From Armatimonadia bacterium (GTDB lineage Bacteria > Armatimonadota > Zipacnadia > Zipacnadales > JABUFB01), in assembly GCA_039679385.1 (NCBI GenBank), contig JBDKVB010000069.1, forward strand, positions 1 to 64,000: a stretch of 64,000 nt of DNA, given 5' to 3'. Made by a program: the position numbers and the translations under genes. Below, piece by piece: positions 4,145-64,000 of this stretch. Numbering within the stretch: the first letter of the stretch is position 1; each line of letters opens with the position of its first letter. The notes beneath the pieces are model-generated. The model made no database searches, was not told the DNA's origin, and saw only the letters and a list, made by a program, of their open reading frames with translations.

Positions 4145-6517
4145 ATGATTGGCCGGGGTTGCCACTTCTGGCGACGGCGCGCGCTCTTGGTGTGCGCCTG
4201 TTGCGTCCTGCCCGGTCTATTCCCCGCCCTGGCCTTCTCCCGCCCGGTCGTCGCCATCACCCGCCCCGCAGATCAGGCCGTACTGTATGGCGATACCACC
4301 GTCGAGGTCGCCTTCCGCAGCGATTCCATGCGCCCCATCGTCCGCCTCGACCTGCTCCTGGATGGTCGCGACCTCCAGTCGGACCCGCTTCCGACGCCGC
4401 TGCTTGAAGGCCAGCGCACGCTGCAGCTACCCTCGGCTGCCCTCGCACCCGGCACCCATCGTCTGACCGTGCGAGCTTTGGATACGCTCGGTGATGTGGG
4501 CACCGGCGAGGTCAATGTGAGTTCGCCGGGCGGCGCCGCAGGCGGAGTCGACGTGATTCCGCCCGCCGTCAGCATCTACTACCCCGCGCAGGGGGCGACG
4601 GTCTCCGGCTTTGTCACTGTCCGCGCCGAGGTCAACGATAGCTCGGCGATCCGTGTCGTGATGTTCTATGTGGACGGCAAGCTGCACACCGTTCGCATGA
4701 ACGCGCCGCCTTTCACCGCCGAATGGGACACGCGCCGCTTCCAGGACGGCACGCATGTGCTGGAGGCTCGAGCCAAGGACTCGGCGGACAACGAGGGGAA
4801 CGCAGCACCCGTAACGGTGATCGTGCAGAACCGTGTTGCTGCACCGACACCGGCTCCCACTCCCGTGAGCGTTCCCGGACCGACGACGATCCCGACGCCG
4901 GGCGTCAGCGGTCCGATTGCGAGCGGCAGTCCGGCTGTGGTCATCCCGGTCGTCGTGGCACCGCCGACGACTGCGGGCGGAACGGGCGAGCCCGCTGTGG
5001 TGATCCCGGGCCCGGTTCCCGTCACACCTTCGCCCGTGGTGGCCATGCCCCCGGTCGAGACGGGTACCGTGCCAGGCCCGATCGTGGCTGCAACCGGCCC
5101 GATCGGCACGCCTGTTGGCGCACCGGCGCCGGTCACTCCGGTTCCGGCTGCGCCTTCCACCGACCTGCATGTTCCGGCGGTCGAAGCGCCGACGCTGGCC
5201 TCGGCCGGTACTGCTCTTGCGCCACCGGCTGGTGCCTCTGAGGAGCCGAAACTGGCTTCGGCCGGATCCATGCTTCCGGCTCCGGTGGCGACTGTAGCTC
5301 GGCCCGACACGACAGTGGCCGAACCTCAGACAGCAGCTCCCGAGGGTACGCCCATGCTGCCGACCGTGCAGCCATCGGGCGACCCTCTGACGGCGCCTGC
5401 CGGCGAGCTTCCCGTGCCTGCTCCGATGCCGCCGATGACGCCGGCTCTCGGGTCCTTGCCGGAGCCGCCCGCTCCGGAGCCTGAGCCGGTGGCTACGCCG
5501 ACCGAAGGCACTGCACCGACAACCGGCACTGCACCGACAACAACCACTACGCTGGCGGAGGCCCCTGCACCGGCAGCAAGCACCACGCCGGTTGAGGTCA
5601 CCACGCCGACGGCAGTCAGCGCTCCTGTCGAGAGTTCTGCATCTGTGGCGGTAGAGACTCCTGCAGCAACCTCGACCCCGGCGGTCGCACCTCCTGTAGA
5701 AGCGGTTGCGACGCCGCCTGTATCGCCCGAGTTGCTTGCGACGGCGCCCATGGGCACCACGGACGCTGCACCGGAGCCCAGGGTTCTGGTGCCGGGCCTG
5801 GTGAAGCCGACGGTAGACCTGTACAAGGAAGGGCCGCAGGCGGCTGTGCCGGACCTGAGCCTCGGGGCGGCAGGAACCTCCGAAGCGCCGGCGTCTGTGG
5901 TCGTTTCCGTGGAAAACCATGTGGAAAACCCGGCGAAACCTGTGGAAGAACCGGCGGCTACCGGCTCAACCACCGCCGTAACGCCGGTTGCAGCGGTCCC
6001 TGAGGCGCCTGCTTCCGAGAGCAGTACCGTCGAGTTCCGGCGCATCAACGGTGGCCCGAGCACTCCGGCTGCATCAGCCGCACCCGAAGGGGCTGCACCG
6101 GTAGCGCGCTCTCCGCGTACCCATCGACTGACGGCCGCCGATGGTCGCGCACTGGCGAAGGCCACCATGACGTATAATGGGCGTGCGCTCCCTGTGGAGG
6201 CACGGCCGGAAGTGCGTCAGGGCGTCCTGATGATCTCCCTGAAGCACATCCTTGAGGCCGCCGACGGTGCGCTCTATTGGTTTGCCTCCGAGAAGATTGC
6301 CCGGGCGGTAACCGAGAAGACGGACCTCTCGGTGCGTCTTGGCAGTGCCCGTGGCGCAGTGAACGGCAAGAGCCGTGAGCTTGCCGCAGCACCCGTGCTG
6401 AAGGACGGCCGGATCCTCGTGCCGCTGGAGTTCGTCGCCGAGGCACTGGGGATGACCGTTGAGTTCGACCCCGACGCAGAGCGAGTTCTGGCCACCGGGC
6501 CAAGCAAGACTCAATAG
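4145..6517 (+). CDS. Secreted Ig-like protein with Pro/Thr-rich stalk and copper-amine-oxidase-N-like domain
   Basis: The ATG at 4145 follows GGAGGAG by 7 bases; an in-frame TTG one codon earlier is less likely. The 790-residue product has an arginine-led signal peptide ending near residue 30 (ALAFS). Two Ig-like beta-sandwich repeats follow, at about 33-125 and 138-230 (PVVAITRPADQAVLYG; PAVSIYYPAQGATVSG, with the typical FYVDGK and DGTHVLEARAKD). Next come roughly 420 residues rich in Pro, Thr, Ala and Val. The C-terminal ~125 residues resemble the copper amine oxidase N-terminal (stalk) domain, including VLKDGRILVPLEFVAEALGM. That domain is common in cell-surface proteins of Gram-positives and Armatimonadota and does not imply oxidase activity. 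Likely an envelope-anchored adhesin or wall-binding protein; function unknown. Confidence 0.75.
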   Translation: MIGRGCHFWRRRALLVCACCVLPGLFPALAFSRPVVAITRPADQAVLYGDTTVEVAFRSDSMRPIVRLDLLLDGRDLQSDPLPTPLLEGQRTLQLPSAALAPGTHRLTVRALDTLGDVGTGEVNVSSPGGAAGGVDVIPPAVSIYYPAQGATVSGFVTVRAEVNDSSAIRVVMFYVDGKLHTVRMNAPPFTAEWDTRRFQDGTHVLEARAKDSADNEGNAAPVTVIVQNRVAAPTPAPTPVSVPGPTTIPTPGVSGPIASGSPAVVIPVVVAPPTTAGGTGEPAVVIPGPVPVTPSPVVAMPPVETGTVPGPIVAATGPIGTPVGAPAPVTPVPAAPSTDLHVPAVEAPTLASAGTALAPPAGASEEPKLASAGSMLPAPVATVARPDTTVAEPQTAAPEGTPMLPTVQPSGDPLTAPAGELPVPAPMPPMTPALGSLPEPPAPEPEPVATPTEGTAPTTGTAPTTTTTLAEAPAPAASTTPVEVTTPTAVSAPVESSASVAVETPAATSTPAVAPPVEAVATPPVSPELLATAPMGTTDAAPEPRVLVPGLVKPTVDLYKEGPQAAVPDLSLGAAGTSEAPASVVVSVENHVENPAKPVEEPAATGSTTAVTPVAAVPEAPASESSTVEFRRINGGPSTPAASAAPEGAAPVARSPRTHRLTAADGRALAKATMTYNGRALPVEARPEVRQGVLMISLKHILEAADGALYWFASEKIARAVTEKTDLSVRLGSARGAVNGKSRELAAAPVLKDGRILVPLEFVAEALGMTVEFDPDAERVLATGPSKTQ

Positions 6518-6541
6518 AGGCGCCTACTGACGGCGCGACCC

Positions 6542-6568
6542 GCAGCCCCATGCCACCGCTGGGGCTGC
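6542..6568 (+). terminator. Hairpin terminator candidate after the Ig protein gene
   Basis: GCAGCCCC (6542-6549) pairs with GGGGCTGC (6561-6568) across an 11-base loop, 25 bases past the stop. There is only TTC after it, so termination may be weak. A second small hairpin follows at about 6582-6601. Confidence 0.4.
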
Positions 6569-6636
6569 TTCGACACCGGTGGGCCCTGAGTGGAGCCCAC
6601 GGTTCGCCAACCTAACCTGGGAATGAGGACTGACGC

Positions 6637-7962
6637 ATGGACCACGTAGAGCCTTTCTTGTTCGGCACCCAGCGCATCAATGAGCAGGGGCACCTCGAGA
6701 TCGGCGGCTGCGACACCCTCGATCTCGCTGCCGAGTTCGGAACGCCCCTGTACGTACTCGATGAAGCCCTCGTGCGTCGTACCTGCAATGCCTATGTGAC
6801 CGAGTTCGGCAAGCGCCTCGAGCGCGTTGAGATCGCCTATGCCGGCAAGGCCCTGCTGACCACTGCCCTGTGCCGCATCGTCGGGCAGGAGGGCATGGCG
6901 CTGGATGTGGCGAGCCCCGGCGAGCTGCACACGGCCCTCAAGGCCGGGTTCCCGGTCGGGCACATCAAGATGCACGGCAACTTCAAGTCCGATATGGCCC
7001 TGGCTATGGCGTTGGAGTGCGGCGTCGGTCGCGTTGTCGCCGATAGCCTCAGTGAGCTGGAGCGCCTGTCGAAGATGGCTGTGGAGATGGGCAAGAAGGC
7101 CGACGTCCTCATCCGCGTCGGCCCCGGGATCAAGACCCAGACCCACAGCTACATCCAGACCGGCCAGGCGGATAGCAAGTTCGGACTGAGCATCGCCTCC
7201 GGAGCGGCGATGGAGGGCATCAAGCTCGCGCTGAGTCTGCCCGGCATCAACTTGCGTGGCCTGCATTGTCACATCGGTTCCCAGCTCTTCGGCCTGGACT
7301 CCTACGCCCGGACCGTCGAGATGATGACGGAGTTCATCAAGCTCGTGCGGGCGCAGACCGACTGGGTCTGCGACGAGCTGGATCTCGGCGGCGGCCTGGG
7401 GATCGCCTACACTCTGGAGGATGCGCCACCCTCCGTCGCTGAGCTGGCCGAGGTCATCTGCGCGGCGCTGAAGTCGGCCGCGGAGGCCCAGGGCCTGCCG
7501 CTGCCCAAGCTGATTCTGGAGCCCGGGCGCTCCATCGTCGGTCCGGCGGGAACCACTCTGTACACGGTTGGGCCCGTCAAGGTCATTCCCGGCGTTCGCA
7601 CCTATGTCTCGGTCGATGGCGGCCTGTCCGACAACCCGCGCCCGGCGCTGTATGAGGCCGAGTACACCGCTCTCGTGGCCAACAAGGCCAACCAGCCCGC
7701 GACGATTCCGGTGCGTGTCTCCGGGTCACACTGCGAGACGGATACCCTGATCCCCGAGACGCCGCTGCAGCCGGTGGAGGAGGGCGACATCATCGCCGTC
7801 TTCTGCACGGGTGCCTATAACCATGCCATGGCGTCGAACTACAACCGGTTCCGCCGACCGGCCATGGTAGTGGTGATGGACGGCAAGGCAGACCTCATCT
7901 ACGAGCGCGAGACGCTCGACGATCTGGTTGCCCACGATGTGATTCCGGACCGCCTGCGTTAG
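6637..7962 (+). CDS. lysA: Diaminopimelate decarboxylase
   Basis: This 441-residue PLP enzyme of alanine-racemase fold type III decarboxylates meso-diaminopimelate to L-lysine, the last step of lysine synthesis. The PLP lysine is K71 (YAGKAL). HIGSQ starts at H212, and the phosphate-binding glycine loop is at 251-253 (LGGGLGIAY). EPGRSIV starts at E295, and the substrate-binding C-E-x-D is at 366-369. A Tyr near the C-terminus (GAYNHAMASNYN) completes the site. Length and motif order match bacterial LysA. AATGAGGA precedes the ATG. No lysine riboswitch fits in the 119-base upstream gap. The next gene begins 62 bases later, so co-transcription is possible. Confidence 0.95.
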   Translation: MDHVEPFLFGTQRINEQGHLEIGGCDTLDLAAEFGTPLYVLDEALVRRTCNAYVTEFGKRLERVEIAYAGKALLTTALCRIVGQEGMALDVASPGELHTALKAGFPVGHIKMHGNFKSDMALAMALECGVGRVVADSLSELERLSKMAVEMGKKADVLIRVGPGIKTQTHSYIQTGQADSKFGLSIASGAAMEGIKLALSLPGINLRGLHCHIGSQLFGLDSYARTVEMMTEFIKLVRAQTDWVCDELDLGGGLGIAYTLEDAPPSVAELAEVICAALKSAAEAQGLPLPKLILEPGRSIVGPAGTTLYTVGPVKVIPGVRTYVSVDGGLSDNPRPALYEAEYTALVANKANQPATIPVRVSGSHCETDTLIPETPLQPVEEGDIIAVFCTGAYNHAMASNYNRFRRPAMVVVMDGKADLIYERETLDDLVAHDVIPDRLR

Positions 7963-8024
7963 GGCCCTGGGACGCCGGCCTCGTCGCTTCGGGCCGGTAA
8001 TGCAGCACCTGGCTGTGATTTGCA

Positions 8025-9293
8025 GTGCGGCAACGACTGGAACAATGGCTGGGCGAGGACGAGACGCGGCTGCTGGAGCAGGCCGGCAGGCTGGCCCACG
8101 AGGCGGGAATGCGCCTCTACCTGGCCGGCGGGTCGGTCCGCGACATCCTTCTGGGGTGTCCGCATCAGGACTGGGACCTGGTTGTCGAAGGTGATGGACT
8201 TGCCCTGGCTCAGGCTCTTGGTGAGGCTTGGTGTGGGCGGTCTACCCTTCACGATCGCTTCCTGACGGCCAGAATCGAGCTCGACGGCGAGACGCACTTT
8301 GATATCGCAACGGCACGGACCGAGACCTACCCGCGTCCGGGAGCGCTACCTGTCGTAACGCCGGCGTCGATGGAGGAGGACCTCTGGCGGCGGGATTTCG
8401 GCGCCAATGCGCTGGCGGTCGCCCTGGGGCCGGACGACTGGGGCGATGTGCTCGACCCCACCGGCGGCATCGACGACCTGCGGCGCAGGATCATCCGGGC
8501 GCTGCATGACCGCAGCTTCTGGGACGATGCCACGCGTATCGTCCGTGCCGTCGGCTTCGAGCAGCGTCTCGGTTTCGCCATCGAGCGACACACGGAGGCC
8601 TGGATCCGCGAAGCGGCGGCCCATGGTGCGCTGCAAACCGTCTCGACGGAGCGCCTGGGTGAGGCCATCCTGCCCTTGCTGTCCAACTCCGTGGGACCCC
8701 AGGTCCTGGCCAGGGGCCATGAGTTGGGGATCGCCCGCGCGCTGGGCGTGCGAGTGGCCTTCAGTCGGCGTGCCCTGCGTGCCCTGCGAGAAGTCCCGGC
8801 GGCTCTGAAGGCGCTGGGAGAAGCGGGTGATCCGCGCGCCCGGGCGGTGGCTTGTCTGGTGGCGCTACTCCTGGGACGGAGCGTTGAAGCCGTCCAGATG
8901 ATTGAGCGGCTGCACCTGGACCGGCCCACAGCACGCGAGTTGCGGGGCGCTGAACGAGCCCTGCGAACCTGGCCCGAGGGTTTCAGGCCCGAGGCACGGC
9001 CCGGAGATCTGTGGGCCCAGTTACGCGAGGCCGACTTCGGGGCGGTCACGATGCTGTGGCTGGCGAACCCGTCCCCGACGGTGCGTAAGGCTCTCGTGAG
9101 CTTCTGGCAAGACCTGCGGCCGACCAAGCCTGACTTTGACCTGGACGACCTCCGAGCGCTGGGCTTCCGGCCCGGAGTGCTCTTCGGTGAGGCGGTACAG
9201 GCGGCACTGCGGGCCAAGCTCAACGACCATGCTGGTCGCGAGGACCAGCTATCGGTCGCTCAGGACGTGCTGCAGAGCCCTCTTGAGATGTGA
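8025..9293 (+). CDS. Class II tRNA nucleotidyltransferase without HD domain (candidate A-adding or CCA-adding enzyme)
   Basis: The 422-residue protein starts at GTG 8025, the only start after an in-frame TGA at 8016. It has the poly(A)-polymerase/CCA head: GGSVRD at 35-40, metal ligands D49 and D51 (DWDLVV), and the RRDF motif at 122-125. A DDATR segment stands at the place of the E/D-D-x-x-R nucleotide-selection motif, and ERLGEA follows. The flexible loop between the first and second motifs is full length (TARTETYPRPGALPVVTPAS), as in CCA- and A-adding enzymes. The C-terminal half is helical and has no HD motif. A second family member lies at 16333-17769 with a shortened loop. I infer that this copy adds the terminal A, or the whole CCA. 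Confidence 0.8.
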   Translation: MRQRLEQWLGEDETRLLEQAGRLAHEAGMRLYLAGGSVRDILLGCPHQDWDLVVEGDGLALAQALGEAWCGRSTLHDRFLTARIELDGETHFDIATARTETYPRPGALPVVTPASMEEDLWRRDFGANALAVALGPDDWGDVLDPTGGIDDLRRRIIRALHDRSFWDDATRIVRAVGFEQRLGFAIERHTEAWIREAAAHGALQTVSTERLGEAILPLLSNSVGPQVLARGHELGIARALGVRVAFSRRALRALREVPAALKALGEAGDPRARAVACLVALLLGRSVEAVQMIERLHLDRPTARELRGAERALRTWPEGFRPEARPGDLWAQLREADFGAVTMLWLANPSPTVRKALVSFWQDLRPTKPDFDLDDLRALGFRPGVLFGEAVQAALRAKLNDHAGREDQLSVAQDVLQSPLEM

Positions 9294-9341
9294 ATCTGTT
9301 CACTTCGTTCGATTTGGCCTTGAGGTTGGCGGATCCCACCT

Positions 9342-9962
9342 ATGCCCATCTTCCAGATGCTCCAGTCGGGGCACTTCAGTATCGCTGGCTTTCTGACGTG
9401 GCTCCTGGCCTTGGTGGTCGGGATCACCGTCCACGAGTTCGCCCATGCCTACCGGGCCGACCGGGCCGGTGACCCGACACCACGGGCCAATGGGCGCGTG
9501 TCCCTCAACCCCTTGGATCACTACGATCCGGTCGGGACGACCCTGATTCTGCTGTTCGGTTTCGGCTGGGGTAAGCCGGTGCCGGTGAACCACTTCTTGT
9601 TTCGCAACCCCCGGCGCGACGAGATCATGGTATCCTTGTGGGGTCCGCTGTCGAACCTGATCACCGCTACCGTGCTCGCGATCCCGATCCGCTTCGGGGT
9701 GGCCGGAGTATACACACCGGTCCTGGTCGCCATCCTTGAGCTCCAGCTCATCCTGGCGGTGTTCAATCTGATACCCGTCTATCCTCTGGATGGCTCGCAC
9801 ATCCTGTCGGCCCTGTTGCCGGCGGAGCAGGCACGGCGTCTGGATGCCGCCTATGCCCAGTATGGCCCGCTGTTGCTGGTGGTCGTCGTCATGGTCGCCG
9901 GTCAGTTCGTCTGGCCCGTCGTGGGAATGCTGCTGAGGCTCCTGCTCGGACCGCTCGCCTAG
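9342..9962 (+). CDS. Site-2 protease family (M50) membrane zinc protease
   Basis: A 206-residue integral membrane protein. HEFAH at 31-35 lies in the first long hydrophobic helix (LLALVVGITV). A late NLIPVYPLDGSHIL segment supplies the third zinc ligand Asp. This is the compact S2P/M50 form common next to scpA-scpB in Firmicutes, Chloroflexi and Armatimonadota, probably without regulatory PDZ domains. Such enzymes cut substrates inside the membrane; the substrate here is unknown. It lies 48 bases after the nucleotidyltransferase gene and 116 bases before the sugar nucleotidyltransferase gene, in the same direction. Confidence 0.85.
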   Translation: MPIFQMLQSGHFSIAGFLTWLLALVVGITVHEFAHAYRADRAGDPTPRANGRVSLNPLDHYDPVGTTLILLFGFGWGKPVPVNHFLFRNPRRDEIMVSLWGPLSNLITATVLAIPIRFGVAGVYTPVLVAILELQLILAVFNLIPVYPLDGSHILSALLPAEQARRLDAAYAQYGPLLLVVVVMVAGQFVWPVVGMLLRLLLGPLA

Positions 9963-10078
9963 ACGAAAGGGACACGGAGGAAGACGAGAGACGAAGCCGG
10001 CACGGCGTGGGGGCGCCGGTGGCACTGCACCTCAGAGGATCGCGGCAACCAAGATTGCACTCGGGCAGGGATACCACG

Positions 10079-11152
10079 ATGATCCAGCGCGCCGTCGTGC
10101 TGTGTGCCGGAGAGGGGAGCCGTCTGAGGCCCCTGACCTTTGCCAAGCCCCCACACCAGCTGCCGGTTGCCGGGAAGCCCATTCTCGGCTGGGCTCTTGA
10201 GGCCCTGCATGAGGCCGGCGTCCGTGAGGTCGCTCTCATCGTCGGCCACCATGCCGAGGCCATCCGCCAGTATGTCGGCCTGGGTGACGCCTTCGGTCTC
10301 GACGTGCAGTACATCCACCAGCTTCAGCCCCTGGGGATCGGCCATGCGGTGAGTCTGGCGCGTGATTTCGTCAAGGGTGAGCCCTTCCTGGTCTACCTGG
10401 GCGACAACCTCTTTGAGCACGGGCTGACGGGCTTCGTCGACAGCCTCCGGGGCAACGACTGGGATGCTGCGCTGCTGCTCAAGAGCGTCGAAGACCCCAG
10501 ACGTTTCGGGGTCGCCGAGGTCGAGGGCGAGCGCATCCTTCGGGTGCTCGAAAAGCCTGCCGATCCGCCCAGCGATCTTGCCATCGTGGGCGTCTACGCC
10601 TTCCATCCGACGGTCTTCCAGGCGATCTACGAACTGGAGCCCTCGGCGCGTGGCGAGGTCGAGATCACCGATGCCATCCAGCAGATCATCAAGTCCGGAC
10701 GTCCGGTCCGCTGGAGCAAGATCGAGGGGCTGTGGGAGGATGCCGGCGAGCCGACGGCACTTCTCCGGGCAAACCGCGAATGGCTGCTGCGACTGCCTTC
10801 ACTGGTGCCGGCCAGCGCTCTCGACAACAGCACTGTCGAGGGCTACGTGGGGATCGAGCGTGGAGCCCGGGCCATCAACTCGAAGCTCCTCGGCCCTTGC
10901 CGCATCGGGCGCAACAGCGTGATCGAGAACTCGGTGATCGGCCCAGACGTGACCATCGGCTCCGGCTGCGAGATCAGCAACACCCGCGTGTCGAACTGCG
11001 TCATCCAGCGCAACAGCCGCGTGCGAGACCTCCCCGGCGGGCTGATCGACTCGGTCCTGGGTGAGAGTGTCGAAGTCCAGGGACGTCCCGACGACGGCGA
11101 CAGGCCTTTGAGCCTGCTGCTCAGCGACATGGCACACGTGATCGCCCGCTAG
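10079..11152 (+). CDS. Sugar-1-phosphate nucleotidyltransferase, long RmlA/GlmU-like form
   Basis: The ATG at 10079 gives 357 residues beginning MIQRAVVLCAGEGSRLRPLT, which is the NTP-binding signature; a longer frame from GTG 10007 lacks this natural N-terminus. The Rossmann-like nucleotidyltransferase domain covers about 1-235 (KPPHQLPVAGKPI, the VYLGDNLF metal-binding Asp, VEITDAIQ, and LWEDAGEP in the usual sugar-binding position). The last ~110 residues have left-handed beta-helix hexapeptides (GPCRIGRNSVIENSVIG). This resembles the long glucose-1-phosphate thymidylyltransferases and GlmU-type UDP-sugar pyrophosphorylases. It probably makes a dTDP- or UDP-sugar for envelope glycans. The nucleotide and sugar cannot be fixed from sequence alone. 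Confidence 0.85.
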   Translation: MIQRAVVLCAGEGSRLRPLTFAKPPHQLPVAGKPILGWALEALHEAGVREVALIVGHHAEAIRQYVGLGDAFGLDVQYIHQLQPLGIGHAVSLARDFVKGEPFLVYLGDNLFEHGLTGFVDSLRGNDWDAALLLKSVEDPRRFGVAEVEGERILRVLEKPADPPSDLAIVGVYAFHPTVFQAIYELEPSARGEVEITDAIQQIIKSGRPVRWSKIEGLWEDAGEPTALLRANREWLLRLPSLVPASALDNSTVEGYVGIERGARAINSKLLGPCRIGRNSVIENSVIGPDVTIGSGCEISNTRVSNCVIQRNSRVRDLPGGLIDSVLGESVEVQGRPDDGDRPLSLLLSDMAHVIAR

Positions 11153-56951: not shown

Positions 56952-57012
56952 TACCTCTTGCCCCTGAGATCCCCCCAGATACCCCTCTGTGGGCAGTGGA
57001 GTCGATTGCACC

Positions 57013-57720
57013 ATGATGGACGTAAAGAAGCTTGCGGAGCTCGCTCGTACAGACGAAGGTCCGGTCAAGATCCAGCGGCAGATGAGCTTGCCCTGGAAGG
57101 ATGCCTTCCGTATCAGCATCAAGAACGTGACCCTCCGCCTGGGTCGAGCGGCGATCACCGCCTCTGGTGTGGTGCTGGGTATTGCGTTCCTGATGTCGAT
57201 CTGGACCTCTCGCGTGTGCACCGACGGCATCGAGAGGTACGAAGCCCAGAGCGCTCGCGCTGTCAACCTCGAGAGCGGCCCAGGTGGCGAGGCTGCCAAG
57301 GCCGAGAAAGTGCAGCGCACTGCGCGCCAGAACTGGCTCGTGGTCATGTCCCTGCTGGTGTGCATGGTAGGGATCACAAACTCCATGCTCATGTCGGTAA
57401 CGGAGCGGTTCCGTGAGATCGGAACCATGAAGTGCCTCGGCGCGCTAGACGCTTTCATCGTTCGGTTATTCCTCATAGAAACGGCCCTGATGGGATTTCT
57501 TGGATCTCTAGTCGGGGGCCTCCTAGGCCTCCTGGTGATGCTGATCGTCTTCACCATCAAGGACCACTCCGTGGCGGCGAAGATGGACTGGGGTCAGCTG
57601 GCGATCTACCTGGCTGTGTCGCTGAGTATCGGCATTGTCGTCTCCCTGTGTGCCGCGGTAATCCCGGCCATGGGTGCAGCGAAGATGCCTGCAGCAGCGG
57701 CGCTGCAAAGCGAAGTCTAG
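57013..57720 (+). CDS. Short FtsX-like ABC permease
   Basis: ATG 57013 (MMDVKKLAEL) gives 235 residues. After a cytoplasmic N-terminus (SLPWKDAFRISIKNVTLRLG), the first membrane helix (ITASGVVLGIAFLMSI) is followed by only about 55 loop residues. Three more helices follow in the FtsX order (VVMSLLVCMVGITNSMLMSV, then TERFREIGTMKCLGA, and so on). MacB/LolE permeases carry a periplasmic domain of ~200 residues at that place, so this one is stripped. It precedes the ATPase and the giant permease and probably forms a heteromeric pair with the latter. Confidence 0.8.
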   Translation: MMDVKKLAELARTDEGPVKIQRQMSLPWKDAFRISIKNVTLRLGRAAITASGVVLGIAFLMSIWTSRVCTDGIERYEAQSARAVNLESGPGGEAAKAEKVQRTARQNWLVVMSLLVCMVGITNSMLMSVTERFREIGTMKCLGALDAFIVRLFLIETALMGFLGSLVGGLLGLLVMLIVFTIKDHSVAAKMDWGQLAIYLAVSLSIGIVVSLCAAVIPAMGAAKMPAAAALQSEV

Positions 57721-57885
57721 GCAGCAAGTGCATACTGCCGCGGACGACGGAGCCCGTATCCGCGGTTGGGTGATCTAGGCAGGCATAGGCCTGCTATCCG
57801 TTGGCCATTCTCCTACGCGAGGTTCCCATGGCGGGGCCGTCGCGGGCAATGCCCGGATCGCGTGGGGGTAGCAGGAGGCTGTCTC

Positions 57886-58797
57886 ATGGCGCTCATCAAG
57901 TGCCCGAACCCGAACTGCGATTATGAGGTAGAAACCACCGGCCTCGTAACGGTCTGCCCCAAGTGCAAGACCGACCTTCGGGGCGTGATGCAAGAGCTCT
58001 CGAAGATCGGCGAGGGTAAGTTCAAGGCCGCAGACCTGGTGCATGACGATTCGGTCACAACCCACGAGTACATCGTCCGCACCAAGGGTCTGACCAAGGA
58101 GTACCGCATGGGCGACAACATCGTCCGTGCCCTCCGTGGGGTCGACCTGGACATTCGCCGCGGCGAGTACCTCTCCATCATGGGCCCGTCCGGTTCGGGC
58201 AAGTCGACCCTGTTCAACATGGTTGGCGGCCTCGATAAGCCCACCAGCGGGACTTGCTTCATCGAAGAGGTCGACATGGCCCAGCTCGACGCTTTTGAGC
58301 TGGCCTGGCTGCGCTGCCGCAAGATCGGCTACATCTTCCAGACCTTCAACCTCATCCCGGTCATGACCGCCCTCGAGAACGTGACCCTGCCCATGATCTT
58401 TGCCGGAATGAACTCCGACGAGATGATGGAACGCGGCCGCACGCTCCTCGAACTGGTCGGCCTCGGTGAGCGCCTGCACCACAAGCCCTCTGAGTGCTCC
58501 GGCGGACAGCAGCAGCGTATCGCTGTCGCCCGCGCCCTGGCGAACAGCCCGGCCATCATCCTGGCTGACGAGCCCACCGGCAACCTCGACCTCCAGACCG
58601 GTAAGGAGATCATCGAGCTGCTCAAGGAGCTCAACGTCGAAAGCGGCGTCACCATCATCTCTGCCACCCACGACCTCAAGATGATTGACGTATCCGACCG
58701 TGTCGTCCACATCCGTGACGGCGGTGTCGAGCGCATCGACAAGCGCGAGGACATCGAACTCGCAGTCGGTGTTATGGGCGGGCAGCAGGGGCACTAG
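57886..58797 (+). CDS. ABC transporter ATPase (MacB/LolD type) with N-terminal zinc ribbon
   Basis: ATG 57886 follows GCAGGAGGC by 7 bases, giving 303 residues. The first 27 residues hold two Cys pairs, C6-x4-C11 and C24-x2-C27 (CPNPNC, CPKC), a zinc-ribbon pattern not normal for this family. A linker of ~35 residues precedes the ATPase: Walker A lysine K106 (GPSGSGKST), Q-loop (YIFQTFNLIP), a signature reading CSGGQQQR with Cys for the usual Leu, Walker B (ILADEPTGNLD) and H-loop (SATHD). It drives type VII, mechanotransmission-style permeases. The two permease genes flank it. Confidence 0.88.
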   Translation: MALIKCPNPNCDYEVETTGLVTVCPKCKTDLRGVMQELSKIGEGKFKAADLVHDDSVTTHEYIVRTKGLTKEYRMGDNIVRALRGVDLDIRRGEYLSIMGPSGSGKSTLFNMVGGLDKPTSGTCFIEEVDMAQLDAFELAWLRCRKIGYIFQTFNLIPVMTALENVTLPMIFAGMNSDEMMERGRTLLELVGLGERLHHKPSECSGGQQQRIAVARALANSPAIILADEPTGNLDLQTGKEIIELLKELNVESGVTIISATHDLKMIDVSDRVVHIRDGGVERIDKREDIELAVGVMGGQQGH

Positions 58798-59035: not shown

Positions 59036-62000
59036 TTGAAGCGCGCAACAACAGGACGATTCCGGGGTCTGCTTACCTTCGCGGCGATCCTGGTCCTGAC
59101 CGCAGGGTCTGCGGTCGCCCCGGCCCAACGCCAAAGCAGTGAAGAAGAAGAAATCGTCCTGAAGTCGGACACCGACTACCAGAAGGTATCGACGCTGGTT
59201 GATCCAGCCGAGATGCAGGCCACCATCCAAGAGATGGCTGGCCTCGGATCCCGTGTCACGGGCTATGACGGCTGCGATCAGGCCGCCAAGCTCGTCGAGA
59301 CCCGCTTCCGCGAGCTCGGTCTTCAGGACGTCGAAGTCGAGGAGTTCCCGGTCGTCGTCCCTGTCGTCAAGCCCGATGCCCAGGGACGTGCGGCCTCTCT
59401 CTCCGTCAAGGGCGCCGATAGCTTCGGGATCATCCCCCTGTGGCCCAACATGGTCCGCACCCCGAAGACCCCGACCGAAGGCGTTAACGGACGCCTGGTC
59501 TACGGCGGAACCGGCAACCTGCGCTTCTTCAATGGCAAGGATATCTCCGAGTCGATCGTCATGGTCGACTTCAACTGCGGCGCCGACTGGTTCAACGCTC
59601 CCCTGCTGGGCGCCAAGGCGGTTCTGTTCATCGAGCCCGATGAGACGATCCGTGGCGAAGCCGAGCAGAAGTTCCTCTCCATCCCGACGAACATCCCGCG
59701 CTACTGGGTACCGAAAGACGTCGCCGACTACCTCATGGGGCTCCTGCGCAGCGAGGACCGCGTCGACATCACCCTCAAGTGCAACATGGCTTGGGAGCAG
59801 CGCACGGGCAAGAACATCGTCGCACACATCAAGGGCACCGACCCGCGGCTCAGCAAGCAACAGGTCGTCGTCCAGGCCTACTATGACTCGATCTCCGTCG
59901 CTCCGACCGTCGCTCCTGGCGGCGAGAACGCCTGCAGCATCGCCGCCCTCTACCAGATCATAAAGGCCGTGCAGGCCAACCCACCCAAGCGCAGCATCAC
60001 CTTCCTGGCCACTGCCGGGCACTTCGAGGCCCTGAGCGGCGCCAAGTACTTCATCCGCGAGCGAATCCGCGGTGGACGCAGCGAACGTCGCGTCCGCCAA
60101 CTGTTCTCGCTGGTCAACAAGGGCCGGCGTGAGATCGAGGACGCCGCCGACCGCGTTTGGGAGGAAGACAAGTCCACAAAGATCGAGAAGACCGAGGAAG
60201 AGATCGTCGCCGAGCGCATGCGCGCTCTCGGACGCATCCAAAAGTCCATCCACTTCGCCCAGAAGAACATGGGCAAGATGGGCAAGGTCATCCGCAAAGC
60301 ACTCAAGGAAGATCCGAACCGCGGCAAGCTCGACGAGTGGCAGCTCAACGACGCAGAGAAGAAGGAGCGCCTCCGACTCATCGACGAGTTCCAGAAGGCC
60401 GGACCCGGGATGACCAAGGCGCTCGAGGACGCTATCGGCGTGGTCCGCGAGGCTCGAAAGGTTCCCGAGACAGCCTCCCTTGAAGACAGGAAGGCGCAGC
60501 TCGAGAAGGTAAAGGCCTCCATCGACGCCTCTACCGACGCCCTCGACTTCTCCCAGGAGGACATCTCCCTCTGGTTCTCCGTTGACTTGTCGAGCCACAA
60601 CAATGCCTACGGCATCTTCTACAAGGGCTACTTCTACAACTACAGCGAGAACATCCAGTGGAAGTTCTCCGACATCGGTAAGAAGGCTCGCGAGTACGGC
60701 GACCTGATCGGCCAGGCCCTCGGTGTCGACGCTACGACACGCTTCGCCGACGGCATCAACGCGATCCAGGGCAAGACCTGGCAGACCTACATGGCCGGCA
60801 AGCTTGCACTGGACAGCGAAGTCGCCACCCTCGCCGGCATCCCCGGTCTGGGCTTCGCGACGATCAACGACTCGCGGCCCCTCGTCGACACGCCACTGGA
60901 CACCCCACAGAAGGTTGACGTCGACAACCTGGCAGCGCAGACCACCTTCCTGAGCTGCATGCTGTGTGACCTGATCAATATCTCCGACCCGGCCAACAAG
61001 GACCTCTACGACCTGCAGCTGGACGACAACTTCGTCGAGGTCAAGGGGCGCCTAGTTGAGTTCAACCCGGAGATGACCACCTTCCCGGACGAGCCGATGA
61101 CCGCCGCCATGGGCGCCATCGCCGTCGCCCGCACTGGCACGAAAACCTCCATGGGTGTGCGCTCCGAGCTCTTTGCCGTGCCGAGCAACCTGCCTCCGTA
61201 CGCTGAGATCAAGGAGAACGGCCAGGTCACCCAGTTCAGGGTCCCCGACCAGACCAAGGACCCGAAGGGCTACAATGCCTTCCGACGTGAGCACCGCCGC
61301 GCCTTCGAAGAGTGGAAGGACAAGGGCGGCAAGATCCACATGCTGGGCTTGCCGAACAGTCGTGCCAGGGGCGGTGTGACCCCGGTCGAGGGCTACATGC
61401 TCGACCCGGAGGACGGGCGCGTCTCGATGGCCCCGGACAAGGGGGTCAACGGTGAGACGGCATACCCGACCGCTCTCACCATGGACCAGGAGATCAAGCC
61501 TGTCACCAGCGTCATGTTCAAGTGCAAGGCCATGACCATCTTCGACATGGTCGACCAGCGCTTCTTCGAGCTTCTGCGCGAGATAAATGTCTACGACGCG
61601 GCCAATGACGCCTCCCCTTACGAGTACGGTTTCTGCCTGCCGCTTCCGCCGCAGCAGTTCGTGTCGGCCTATGAGCCGGTCGCCGTCGTCTTTGCGCAGA
61701 GCGGTACCAAGGTCAAGGTGACCATGGGCGCCAGCGTTCTGGGTCTGCGCATGGTCCTTGTGAACCCGACGCCTTTGAAGCCGGAGGGCGAAGGCTACCT
61801 GATCGACGATAACGCTTCCATGTATGCGACGCCGTACCGCGTCGCCGCCGACATGTGGAAGCTCGACGAAGACCGCATGTCGAAACTGCGCAAGCACGGC
61901 ATCGAGAACAGCCGCGTCGACGCAGCCCACGAGCAGGCGCATGATGACCTGATCGCGGCCGAAGACCTGATGCAGCGACGGCTCTACGACAAGTTCTTCA

Positions 62001-64000
62001 CCGCCGCCCGGTCGGCGTGGAGCTTCGAGTCGCGAGCCTATCCTGACGTCCGCAGTACCTCTGACGACGTCATCAAGGGCATTCTGTTCTACCTGGCACT
62101 TCTGCTGCCCTTCGCCTTCTTCGCCGAGCGCCTGCTGATCGCCGCACCGGATGTACGCTGGCAGATCATCGGCTTCTTCGGCGTGTTCATGTTCGTCTTC
62201 TTCCTGATTGCGCTGGTCCATCCGGCCTTCGCCATCACCTTCACACCGGCCATCATCCTGTTGGCCTTCGTCATCCTCGCGCTCACGATGGTCGTTATCG
62301 CGATCATCGTCCAGAAGTTCGAGCAGCAGATGAAGGAGGTCCGCTACGAGCAGACTGGTATCAGGACGGCAGACGTTGGCCGTCTGAGCGCTTCGGGTGC
62401 CGCCTTCAACCTCGGCATCGCCAACATGCGCCGCCGCAAGGTGCGTACGCTGCTGACCTGTCTGACCCTGGTCCTGCTAACCTTCACGGTCCTTTCGTGC
62501 ACCTCCGTTGTTGAAGGCGTGCGCACGAATCGAATCCGGCTCCCGAAGACCGCGACCTACAACGGGATCGAGATCCGCGACAAGACTTGGAACGCCATTG
62601 GTGAGCCGACCTACCGCGTCATGACCAACGAGTTCGGCGACAGGTTCCCGGTCGCCCCGCGGGCCTGGTACTTCTCCAGCAAGGTCGGCGACCAGTCCTT
62701 CGTCAACGTTAGCCGCGGCATCGACACCTATGCTGCCACCGCCATGGTCGGCCTTACCGCCCAGGAGGCGGACATCACCAAGCCGCAGGCTCATCTGATG
62801 GCCGGCCGGTGGTTCCGGCCCGACGACAGCCTCGTGTGCATCATCCCCGATGGGATGGCGAAGAAGCTGAACATCGCCAACGATCAGGTTGGTACGGCGA
62901 CGGTCTCGGTCTTCGGCACCGACCTGCGCATCATTGGCATCGTTCGGTCGAACCGGTTCAAGAACCGCGCCAACGACCTCGACGGCGAGAACCTGACGCC
63001 CGTTGACTATCTACTCATGCAGGAACAGGCCGCCCAGCAGCAGTCACAGCAGCGGTCCGACCGCATGAGTGAGGACGAGCTGCGTGAGTACATCCACCTT
63101 GCGCCGGATAGCGTCCTGTTTGTGCCCTACCAGTTCGTTATCAACGCCGGCGGCAATCTCCGCTCGGTGGCCATCGGGATCCCGCAGGCGGATGAGGTGC
63201 GGAAGGCCCTCGACAACCTCATGCAGCGCATTGAGCTGAACCTGTACGCCGGCATGAATGGCGAGACCTACCTGTGCAGCGCCGTGAGCGCGACGAGCTT
63301 CAAGGGAGCCTCCGACCTGGTAATCCCGATCCTCATCGCAGCGGCCATCGTTCTGAACACGATGCTGGGATCGGTGTACGAGCGCACCAAGGAGATCTAC
63401 ATCTACAGCTCCCTTGGCCTTGCGCCGACCCATATCGCGGCCCTGTTCATCGCTGAGGCCTGCGTGTACGCCATCCTCGGCGCCATCGCCGGTTACCTCG
63501 TGGGACAGGCCATGGCCAAGCTGCTAATGACCTTCGGGTGGCTGGCCGGTCTGAACCTGAACTACTCGTCCCTGTCGGCAGTTGGATCGACCTCGATCAT
63601 CATGCTTACGGTGCTGCTGTCGGTCATCTACCCGGCCAAACGTGCCTCCGAGATCGCCATGCCGGGTATCGAGCGCCGCTGGACGTTGCCGGAGCCTCAA
63701 AACGACCAGATCGCCATGCCCCTTCCCTTCACGGTGACCGGGGACCAGGCAGTGGGTGTGAACATGTTCCTGCGCGAGTACCTGGCGGCCCATGCCGACT
63801 ACTCGCTAGGGCACTTCTCCACGGCCGACATCGAGCTCGGGACCATACAGGCCGAGCTGGGCGAGGGGTACCAGTTGTCGCTCATGGTCTGGCTGGCTCC
63901 CTACGACCTGGGTGTCTCGGAACGCTTGCTCCTCCAGACCGTTCCGACGGAGGACGAGGAAGTCTACCAGATCCAGGCCGTTATTGTGCGCGAGAGCGGT
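59036..64000 (+). CDS. Giant FtsX/MacB-type permease with M28-peptidase-like ectodomain (3' end outside window)
   Basis: TTG 59036 after AAGGCGGTGAG opens a frame of at least 1655 codons without a stop to the window end. A signal peptide (LLTFAAILVLTAGSAVA) leads into an M28-like domain at about 55-350 (LGSRVTGYDGCDQAAKLVE). A PA-like insert is at about 150-210 (GGTGNLRFFNGKDI). The core reads AYYDS, GGENACS and AGHFEALSGA where active M28 enzymes have AHYDS, G-A-D-N and G-E-E-x-G-L, so metal positions are Y282, E297 and H329-F330. A charged helical stretch follows at about 350-530. Three helices precede residue 1120, then NMRRRKVRTLLTCLTLVLLT at 1130 starts an FtsX permease, which closes at about 1422-1540 (VIPILIAAAIVLNTMLG, YERTKEIYIYSSLG). 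A further soluble part continues past the edge. Confidence 0.85.
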   Translation, partial: MKRATTGRFRGLLTFAAILVLTAGSAVAPAQRQSSEEEEIVLKSDTDYQKVSTLVDPAEMQATIQEMAGLGSRVTGYDGCDQAAKLVETRFRELGLQDVEVEEFPVVVPVVKPDAQGRAASLSVKGADSFGIIPLWPNMVRTPKTPTEGVNGRLVYGGTGNLRFFNGKDISESIVMVDFNCGADWFNAPLLGAKAVLFIEPDETIRGEAEQKFLSIPTNIPRYWVPKDVADYLMGLLRSEDRVDITLKCNMAWEQRTGKNIVAHIKGTDPRLSKQQVVVQAYYDSISVAPTVAPGGENACSIAALYQIIKAVQANPPKRSITFLATAGHFEALSGAKYFIRERIRGGRSERRVRQLFSLVNKGRREIEDAADRVWEEDKSTKIEKTEEEIVAERMRALGRIQKSIHFAQKNMGKMGKVIRKALKEDPNRGKLDEWQLNDAEKKERLRLIDEFQKAGPGMTKALEDAIGVVREARKVPETASLEDRKAQLEKVKASIDASTDALDFSQEDISLWFSVDLSSHNNAYGIFYKGYFYNYSENIQWKFSDIGKKAREYGDLIGQALGVDATTRFADGINAIQGKTWQTYMAGKLALDSEVATLAGIPGLGFATINDSRPLVDTPLDTPQKVDVDNLAAQTTFLSCMLCDLINISDPANKDLYDLQLDDNFVEVKGRLVEFNPEMTTFPDEPMTAAMGAIAVARTGTKTSMGVRSELFAVPSNLPPYAEIKENGQVTQFRVPDQTKDPKGYNAFRREHRRAFEEWKDKGGKIHMLGLPNSRARGGVTPVEGYMLDPEDGRVSMAPDKGVNGETAYPTALTMDQEIKPVTSVMFKCKAMTIFDMVDQRFFELLREINVYDAANDASPYEYGFCLPLPPQQFVSAYEPVAVVFAQSGTKVKVTMGASVLGLRMVLVNPTPLKPEGEGYLIDDNASMYATPYRVAADMWKLDEDRMSKLRKHGIENSRVDAAHEQAHDDLIAAEDLMQRRLYDKFFTAARSAWSFESRAYPDVRSTSDDVIKGILFYLALLLPFAFFAERLLIAAPDVRWQIIGFFGVFMFVFFLIALVHPAFAITFTPAIILLAFVILALTMVVIAIIVQKFEQQMKEVRYEQTGIRTADVGRLSASGAAFNLGIANMRRRKVRTLLTCLTLVLLTFTVLSCTSVVEGVRTNRIRLPKTATYNGIEIRDKTWNAIGEPTYRVMTNEFGDRFPVAPRAWYFSSKVGDQSFVNVSRGIDTYAATAMVGLTAQEADITKPQAHLMAGRWFRPDDSLVCIIPDGMAKKLNIANDQVGTATVSVFGTDLRIIGIVRSNRFKNRANDLDGENLTPVDYLLMQEQAAQQQSQQRSDRMSEDELREYIHLAPDSVLFVPYQFVINAGGNLRSVAIGIPQADEVRKALDNLMQRIELNLYAGMNGETYLCSAVSATSFKGASDLVIPILIAAAIVLNTMLGSVYERTKEIYIYSSLGLAPTHIAALFIAEACVYAILGAIAGYLVGQAMAKLLMTFGWLAGLNLNYSSLSAVGSTSIIMLTVLLSVIYPAKRASEIAMPGIERRWTLPEPQNDQIAMPLPFTVTGDQAVGVNMFLREYLAAHADYSLGHFSTADIELGTIQAELGEGYQLSLMVWLAPYDLGVSERLLLQTVPTEDEEVYQIQAVIVRESG

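Follow-up and report, generated by a model that had tools for sequence, protein, structure and literature searches.

Aminopeptidases of the M28 family that carry a PA insert, such as those from Aneurinibacillus (2ek8), B. subtilis (BSAP, 6hc6) and Shewanella (3iib), are two-zinc enzymes or are annotated as such. For the aminopeptidase from Aeromonas (AAP), we take the zinc ligands to be His97, the bridging Asp117, Glu152, Asp179 and His256, and the general base to be Glu151. To our knowledge, most of the pseudo-peptidases known to have an M28 fold are eukaryotic receptors. In MacB and LolCDE, hydrolysis of ATP in the cytoplasm moves periplasmic domains via the FtsX core. The ectodomain of nicastrin is described as similar to aminopeptidases and the transferrin receptor and as carrying a motif for possible substrate binding (PMC4326451). 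The protein investigated here is a giant FtsX/MacB-type ABC permease from Armatimonadota with a periplasmic pseudo-M28 domain. This domain shares the common fold, the PA-like insert and the order of the motifs with the M28 aminopeptidases; however, it differs from them in four of the five ligands and in the base, and it forms part of a permease polypeptide. As in transferrin receptor 1, nicalin and nicastrin, an M28-type ectodomain sits on a membrane protein and is proposed to have lost catalysis, although those proteins are eukaryotic and not ABC transporters, whereas the pseudo-M28 domain is found on a bacterial ABC permease. Transferrin receptor and nicalin are matched by sequence profile, and the former also by fold. 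With MacB, and with LolC/LolE and the LolD/MacB ATPases (type VII ABC systems), the locus has in common MacB_PCD, the FtsX core, a LolD-like ATPase and a second FtsX protein nearby; it differs in the M28-fold ectodomain of about 1000 residues, the extra hydrophobic segments, and a partner FtsX that is almost without an ectodomain. Throughout Armatimonadota, the pseudo-M28 domain has probably given up its enzymatic activity to serve as a conserved sensor or receptor.

The permease gene begins with a TTG codon at position 59036 of the window (the 64,000-nucleotide stretch of DNA that was analysed) and lies on the forward strand, as do all features given below by window coordinates. The open reading frame and the assembly (5.6 Mb) place its end at 64156, giving a protein of 1706 amino acids; the end of the window truncates the gene (59036..64000), which has matches to PF04389, PF12704 and PF02687 above their cut-offs. 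The whole gene occupies positions 5037-10157 of assembly locus L005. Hydropathy marks a signal peptide or first hydrophobic segment at residues 12-30 (59069..59125). A periplasmic part of about 980-1000 residues comes next, then extra hydrophobic segments at residues 1012-1030 and 1073-1091 (62069..62308, by hydropathy), probably with a third one between residues 1030 and 1073, and finally the MacB_PCD and FtsX core at residues 1138-1326 and 1430-1539 (62447..63652), for which the Pfam scores of 30.3 bits (PF12704) and 49.2 bits (PF02687) both exceed the cut-off. According to AlphaFold2 and Foldseek, the pseudo-M28 domain with its PA-like insert takes up residues 45-650 (59168..60985). A long, coiled-coil-like insert of about 160 amino acids, modeled as helices by AlphaFold2, interrupts it at residues 346-505 (60071..60550) and is unmatched in most family members outside the order, where distant profile matches skip the stretch. 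The original prediction placed an M28-like domain at 59036-60100. This interval is too short: the gene continues to its end beyond the window, and the domain reaches about 60985 because the helical insert splits it. About 330 more periplasmic residues (about 680-1010) follow the pseudo-M28 domain.

The ectodomain is a true M28 homologue, and the M28-like fold that had been recognized from sequence markers is borne out by Pfam, by a profile search of the PDB, and by AlphaFold2 with Foldseek. In Pfam it belongs to the M28 profile PF04389 with 38.2 bits against a cut-off of 21.3; the match spans just the first 78 of 193 model positions, because the helical insert comes next. A profile of 45 relatives finds 2ek8, 6hc6 and the Aeromonas aminopeptidase in the PDB with E-values from 8e-15 to 3e-8, and also retrieves the transferrin receptor and nicalin. 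The AlphaFold2 model of the domain has a pLDDT of 88.9 and a pTM of 0.86, and its top Foldseek matches are 2ek8 (1.1e-19), 3iib, BSAP 6hc6 and the transferrin receptor; the TM-scores by query length are 0.4-0.5, as expected because of the helical insert. Of the features of a pseudo-peptidase receptor like nicastrin or the transferrin receptor, the permease has the M28-fold ectodomain and the loss of the catalytic set; binding of a partner or substrate is putative.

The site was aligned with active-type M28 proteins from this genome or from its class (L007, L135, L136 and L102), which keep the pattern HxD / DN / EE / D / H in motifs such as SGHHDS..AEDNAAG..GTEE, AAHYDT..AVDNASG..GAEE..IDCVG..HTAHD and GAHYDH..ADDNASG..GEE..LDMVG..HTPDD. 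In the pseudo-M28 family the motifs read QAYYDS..GGENACS..GHF..VDLSS..VDTPLD, and all five align unambiguously to those of the active-type relatives. Y282-Y283-D284 (59879..59887) stand in the M28 His-x-Asp place (AAP His97 and Asp99), with the His lost and the Asp invariant. E297 (59924..59926) is found at the position of the bridging Asp117 in the alignment of 86 representatives, and H329-F330 (60020..60025) at that of the Glu-Glu pair, the general base Glu151 and the ligand Glu152. D517 (60584..60586) corresponds to Asp179 and is a retained ligand, and D618 (60887..60889) is aligned with His256. Residues E297 and D618 are substituted yet still carboxylates. The placement of H329 is anchored by 2anp, which has His where other Aeromonas aminopeptidase entries have Glu151, and whose sequence AAHEVGL aligns to SGHFEAL. 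In place of the M28 ligand set (AAP 97, 117, 152, 179 and 256) the permease has Y282, E297, F330, D517 and D618, and in place of the general-base Glu (AAP 151) it has H329. With the TTG start at 59036, Y282, E297, H329 and F330 had been read correctly in the original prediction; its statement that all visible ligands are replaced was too strong, since four of the five are changed and Asp179 is kept as D517, which like D618 lies downstream of the interval then considered.

Conservation was scored in 86 representatives with less than 75% identity (median pairwise identity 41%), which come from many Armatimonadota families and include the divergent groups f24 and f25, presumably Fimbriimonadia. 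H329 is His in all 86 and D517 is Asp in 85 of 85; within the order, 30 orthologues and 21 paralogues all keep both residues. Position 297 is E in 75, D in 10 and S in one of the 86; position 618 is D in 81, N in three and E in one of 85. Y is found at position 282 in 77 of the 86 (otherwise F, W, S, N or P) and F at position 330 in 70 (elsewhere G, Y, H, C or A). One paralogue, L041, has His at 282, with the remaining site positions as in the pseudo-M28 family. Only 13 of the 412 scored columns are invariant (R73, P137, W185, P217, R222, D284, P290, H329, G335, D517, D572, R614 and D622), and the presence of H329, D284 and D517 among them argues for selection on the altered site and not for decay. 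The six-residue site string is YEHFDD in 53 of the 86 representatives, with near variants in the remainder. The substitutions are therefore conserved in homologues, a point on which the original prediction depended, and the active string HDEEDH, the intact set that would have spoken against it, is found in 0 of 86. Pseudogene decay can be ruled out for a full-length, in-frame gene that the whole phylum conserves; the altered site in all homologues checked likewise rules out that the loss was recent or due to chance in the source genome. A tree places the pseudo-M28 family and the four active-type M28 proteins on opposite sides of a 99% branch, leaving aside row L141, which was taken in a wrong frame; the other M28 loci of the genome were picked by a crude motif rule. 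These sequence comparisons argue for a rebuilt site that is ancient and under selection. Most simply, the two-zinc chemistry was lost once, at or before the base of the sampled Armatimonadota, and strong selection followed.

What the altered pocket does can be explained in several ways. An ordinary M28 peptidase with a misplaced alignment would be compatible with the Pfam score above the cut-off. However, the five motifs leave no ambiguity in the alignment to active-type relatives, and the aligned columns of the window protein contain only three His (264, 329 and 521), of which 329 alone is invariant; at the level of the sequence this explanation is already contradicted, and we find it scarcely credible. 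The site may instead have been repurposed so that a peptide-like substrate undergoes a new reaction before it is transported, with one metal or none, and with H329 acting as base or ligand together with E297, D517 and D618. H329 is invariant and located exactly at the general-base position, the three carboxylates are at metal-ligand positions, and 2anp, an Aeromonas-type aminopeptidase with His at the H329 position, aligns there. An engineered enzyme with the corresponding substitution, E151H, is termed 'functional' in the title of a paper (Bzymek et al. 2005, cited in PMC4320195), which at the level of that title favors such a reaction, but the E151H enzyme retained all zinc ligands. The permease lacks both His of the zinc site as well as Glu152 and so has no standard zinc site, and the variation at positions 282 (Y/F/W/S/N/P) and 330 (F/G/Y/H/C/A) is unusual for an active centre. 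We consider a repurposed active or metal site rather unlikely. The original prediction had also proposed H329 and E331 as a new site; H329 is invariant as described, but E331 is unlikely to take part, given its variability (Q in 29, E in 25 and L in 19 of 86), and from the alignment any new site would be formed by H329 with E297, D517 and D618. Metal binding or weak chemistry at the rebuilt site is possible, because two carboxylates and one His lie near the old zinc positions.

A further explanation is that the domain merely holds the complex, through a dimer or partner contact as in the transferrin receptor, and that its conserved polar residues are structural. The transferrin receptor, a non-enzyme with the M28 fold, is among the best fold matches, and the other invariant columns are P, G, W and R; however, the invariant acidic and His residues occupy what used to be the catalytic positions instead of some arbitrary surface, and a pure scaffold would have no need for a new invariant His there. 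This makes a purely structural role improbable in our judgment. We favor, and consider probable, the explanation that the pseudo-M28 domain is a non-peptidase M28 homologue that has taken on ligand binding or sensing as the ectodomain of a type VII (FtsX/MacB-type, mechanotransmission) ABC complex. That an inactive M28 domain would serve the transporter in binding or sensing had been suggested originally, and it remains the best supported reading: the ligands are altered in all homologues checked, the domain is fused to an FtsX permease, and an ATPase and a second permease are encoded nearby, which together point to this function. As a counterpoint, the periplasmic residues from about 680 to 1010 could be the true receptor.

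The gene neighborhood is consistent with an ABC complex. A LolD/MacB-type ABC ATPase (57766..58797; PF00005, 110 bits) is encoded immediately upstream of the permease, preceded by a minimal FtsX permease whose external loop is very short (56989..57720; PF02687, 60.9 bits); the latter, in a cluster shared by distant relatives, is the probable partner half-transporter of the giant permease. The FtsX C-terminal domain, MacB_PCD and the adjacent gene for the putative cognate ATPase place the system in type VII; its scores fall short of a LolCDE lipoprotein releaser, with 16.9 against 362 bits for LolC/E and 232.7 bits against a cut-off of 307.75 bits for LolD (TIGR02211). The ATPase of the window has an N-terminal Cys4 zinc-ribbon-like stretch that is absent from the distant ATPases compared. 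Directly downstream of the permease, past the end of the window (L005, 10280-12295), a membrane protein of about 670 amino acids is encoded, for which we find no Pfam or NCBIfam family and no sequence match to any PDB chain. Its model (pLDDT 65, pTM 0.73) has only two significant Foldseek matches, both to barley YS1 (7wst, E-value 1.6e-9, TM-scores 0.59/0.62), an OPT-family iron-chelate transporter. The protein has the same fold as the OPT/YSL transporters but no sequence family in common with them, so that membership is seen in the fold of a pLDDT-65 model and not in a sequence profile.

This OPT-fold gene directly follows the permease in each of the 10 class loci whose flanks are long enough, and in 16 of the 20 distant ones. 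The minimal FtsX is found in 24 of 24 distant genomes; in 13 of these its distance from the permease is no more than about 6 kb, and a LolD-like ATPase gene invariably adjoins it. Because the loci were picked by family instead of randomly, and because several of the assemblies are in fragments, the 13 of 24 should be taken as descriptive and not as a rate. The permease, OPT, minimal FtsX and ATPase genes occur together in 13 distant loci that were read completely. Between the OPT and FtsX genes, distant loci encode a two-part 310-aa protein without a Pfam family (GWQG..VP.DW), and several encode a PqqD-like protein, with PF05402 in the two that were scanned (L209 and L207). All six cassette genes stand head to tail in L198, where the OPT-fold gene is at 7452-9482, the ~310-aa gene at 9549-10466 and the PqqD-like gene at 10470-10904. 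The cassette is split in the source genome: four genes are together at the locus described here, and the PqqD-like gene (L236, 1384-2040, contig C68) and the ~310-aa gene (L222, contig C114) occur once each on other contigs. The PqqD-like gene is single copy in most genomes searched, and each of 10 genomes searched has a single copy of the ~310-aa gene. The three f24/f25 loci that were read (L211-L213) have the permease gene on its own, so the OPT gene need not be linked to it. Three distant lineages have apparently paired M16 peptidase genes immediately upstream of the permease gene (L113, 1493-2803; L123, 5972-8701; L131, 1007-2584). A RiPP or PQQ pathway, as the PqqD and M16 genes might suggest, was not adopted, M16 genes being present in only these three of the loci inspected. 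In L114 a DUF6785/DUF6784 membrane protein (7809-9848) is encoded upstream of the permease, and the usual OPT-fold gene was not found there.

The permease family was detected in at least 193 of the 291 Armatimonadota genomes sampled (E<=1e-30), and at class level 45 of 46 genomes have a match at 1e-15. The family is not found in every genome: four that were rechecked at 1e-12 gave no match, and part of the assemblies are incomplete. Relatives with 56-70% identity come from Candidatus Zipacnadia, candidate division WS1 and Armatimonadetes. A contig scan with family patterns that reach close relatives only found Armatimonadota alone; a search of plasmids returned one short stretch of an annotated M28 metallopeptidase and nothing further. 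A permease paralogue from a class-wide group (group B; L006, 3528-8648) has the same altered M28 site and lies beside a GroEL-like gene, without the cassette.

If the pseudo-M28 domain is a binding or sensing ectodomain, the old aminopeptidase pocket would have been kept but rebuilt, its two-zinc chemistry replaced by the fixed cluster of H329, D284, E297, D517 and D618. We infer that peptidase activity was lost and that the pocket may bind a peptide-like or polar ligand, or the terminus of a partner protein. On the model of MacB and LolCDE, the LolD-like ATPase would hydrolyse ATP in the cytoplasm and thereby move the ectodomain via the FtsX core, with the minimal FtsX as the putative second half of the complex; functionally, this complex may be associated with the OPT-fold transporter encoded next to it. 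A peptide-like ligand is our favored guess, since M28 folds are binders of polar head groups or of the N-termini of peptides, OPT transporters move metal chelates as well as peptides, and PqqD domains are peptide-binding. A more speculative extension, which we offer tentatively, is that the permease provides the receptor for an as yet undescribed envelope machine, which up to six genes would encode in most of the phylum and in which the His/carboxylate pocket would capture a peptide or metal-peptide ligand that the ABC engine and the OPT transporter then move. The six proposed genes encode the pseudo-M28 FtsX permease, the OPT-fold transporter, the 310-aa protein, the PqqD-like protein, the minimal FtsX and the LolD-like ATPase.

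A non-exhaustive literature search found no paper that names an M28-FtsX fusion. Joining an M28 homologue that is probably not a peptidase to a type VII ABC permease is a new arrangement of known kinds, and its partner cassette is widely conserved in the phylum. A bacterial phylum keeps an M28 pseudo-peptidase on a giant ABC permease, and hardly any other part of the domain is as strictly conserved as the altered site, which provides a clear test case for the conversion of an enzyme pocket to a receptor or sensor. The cassette, being conserved, indicates a transport system of the Armatimonadota that has so far been unstudied.
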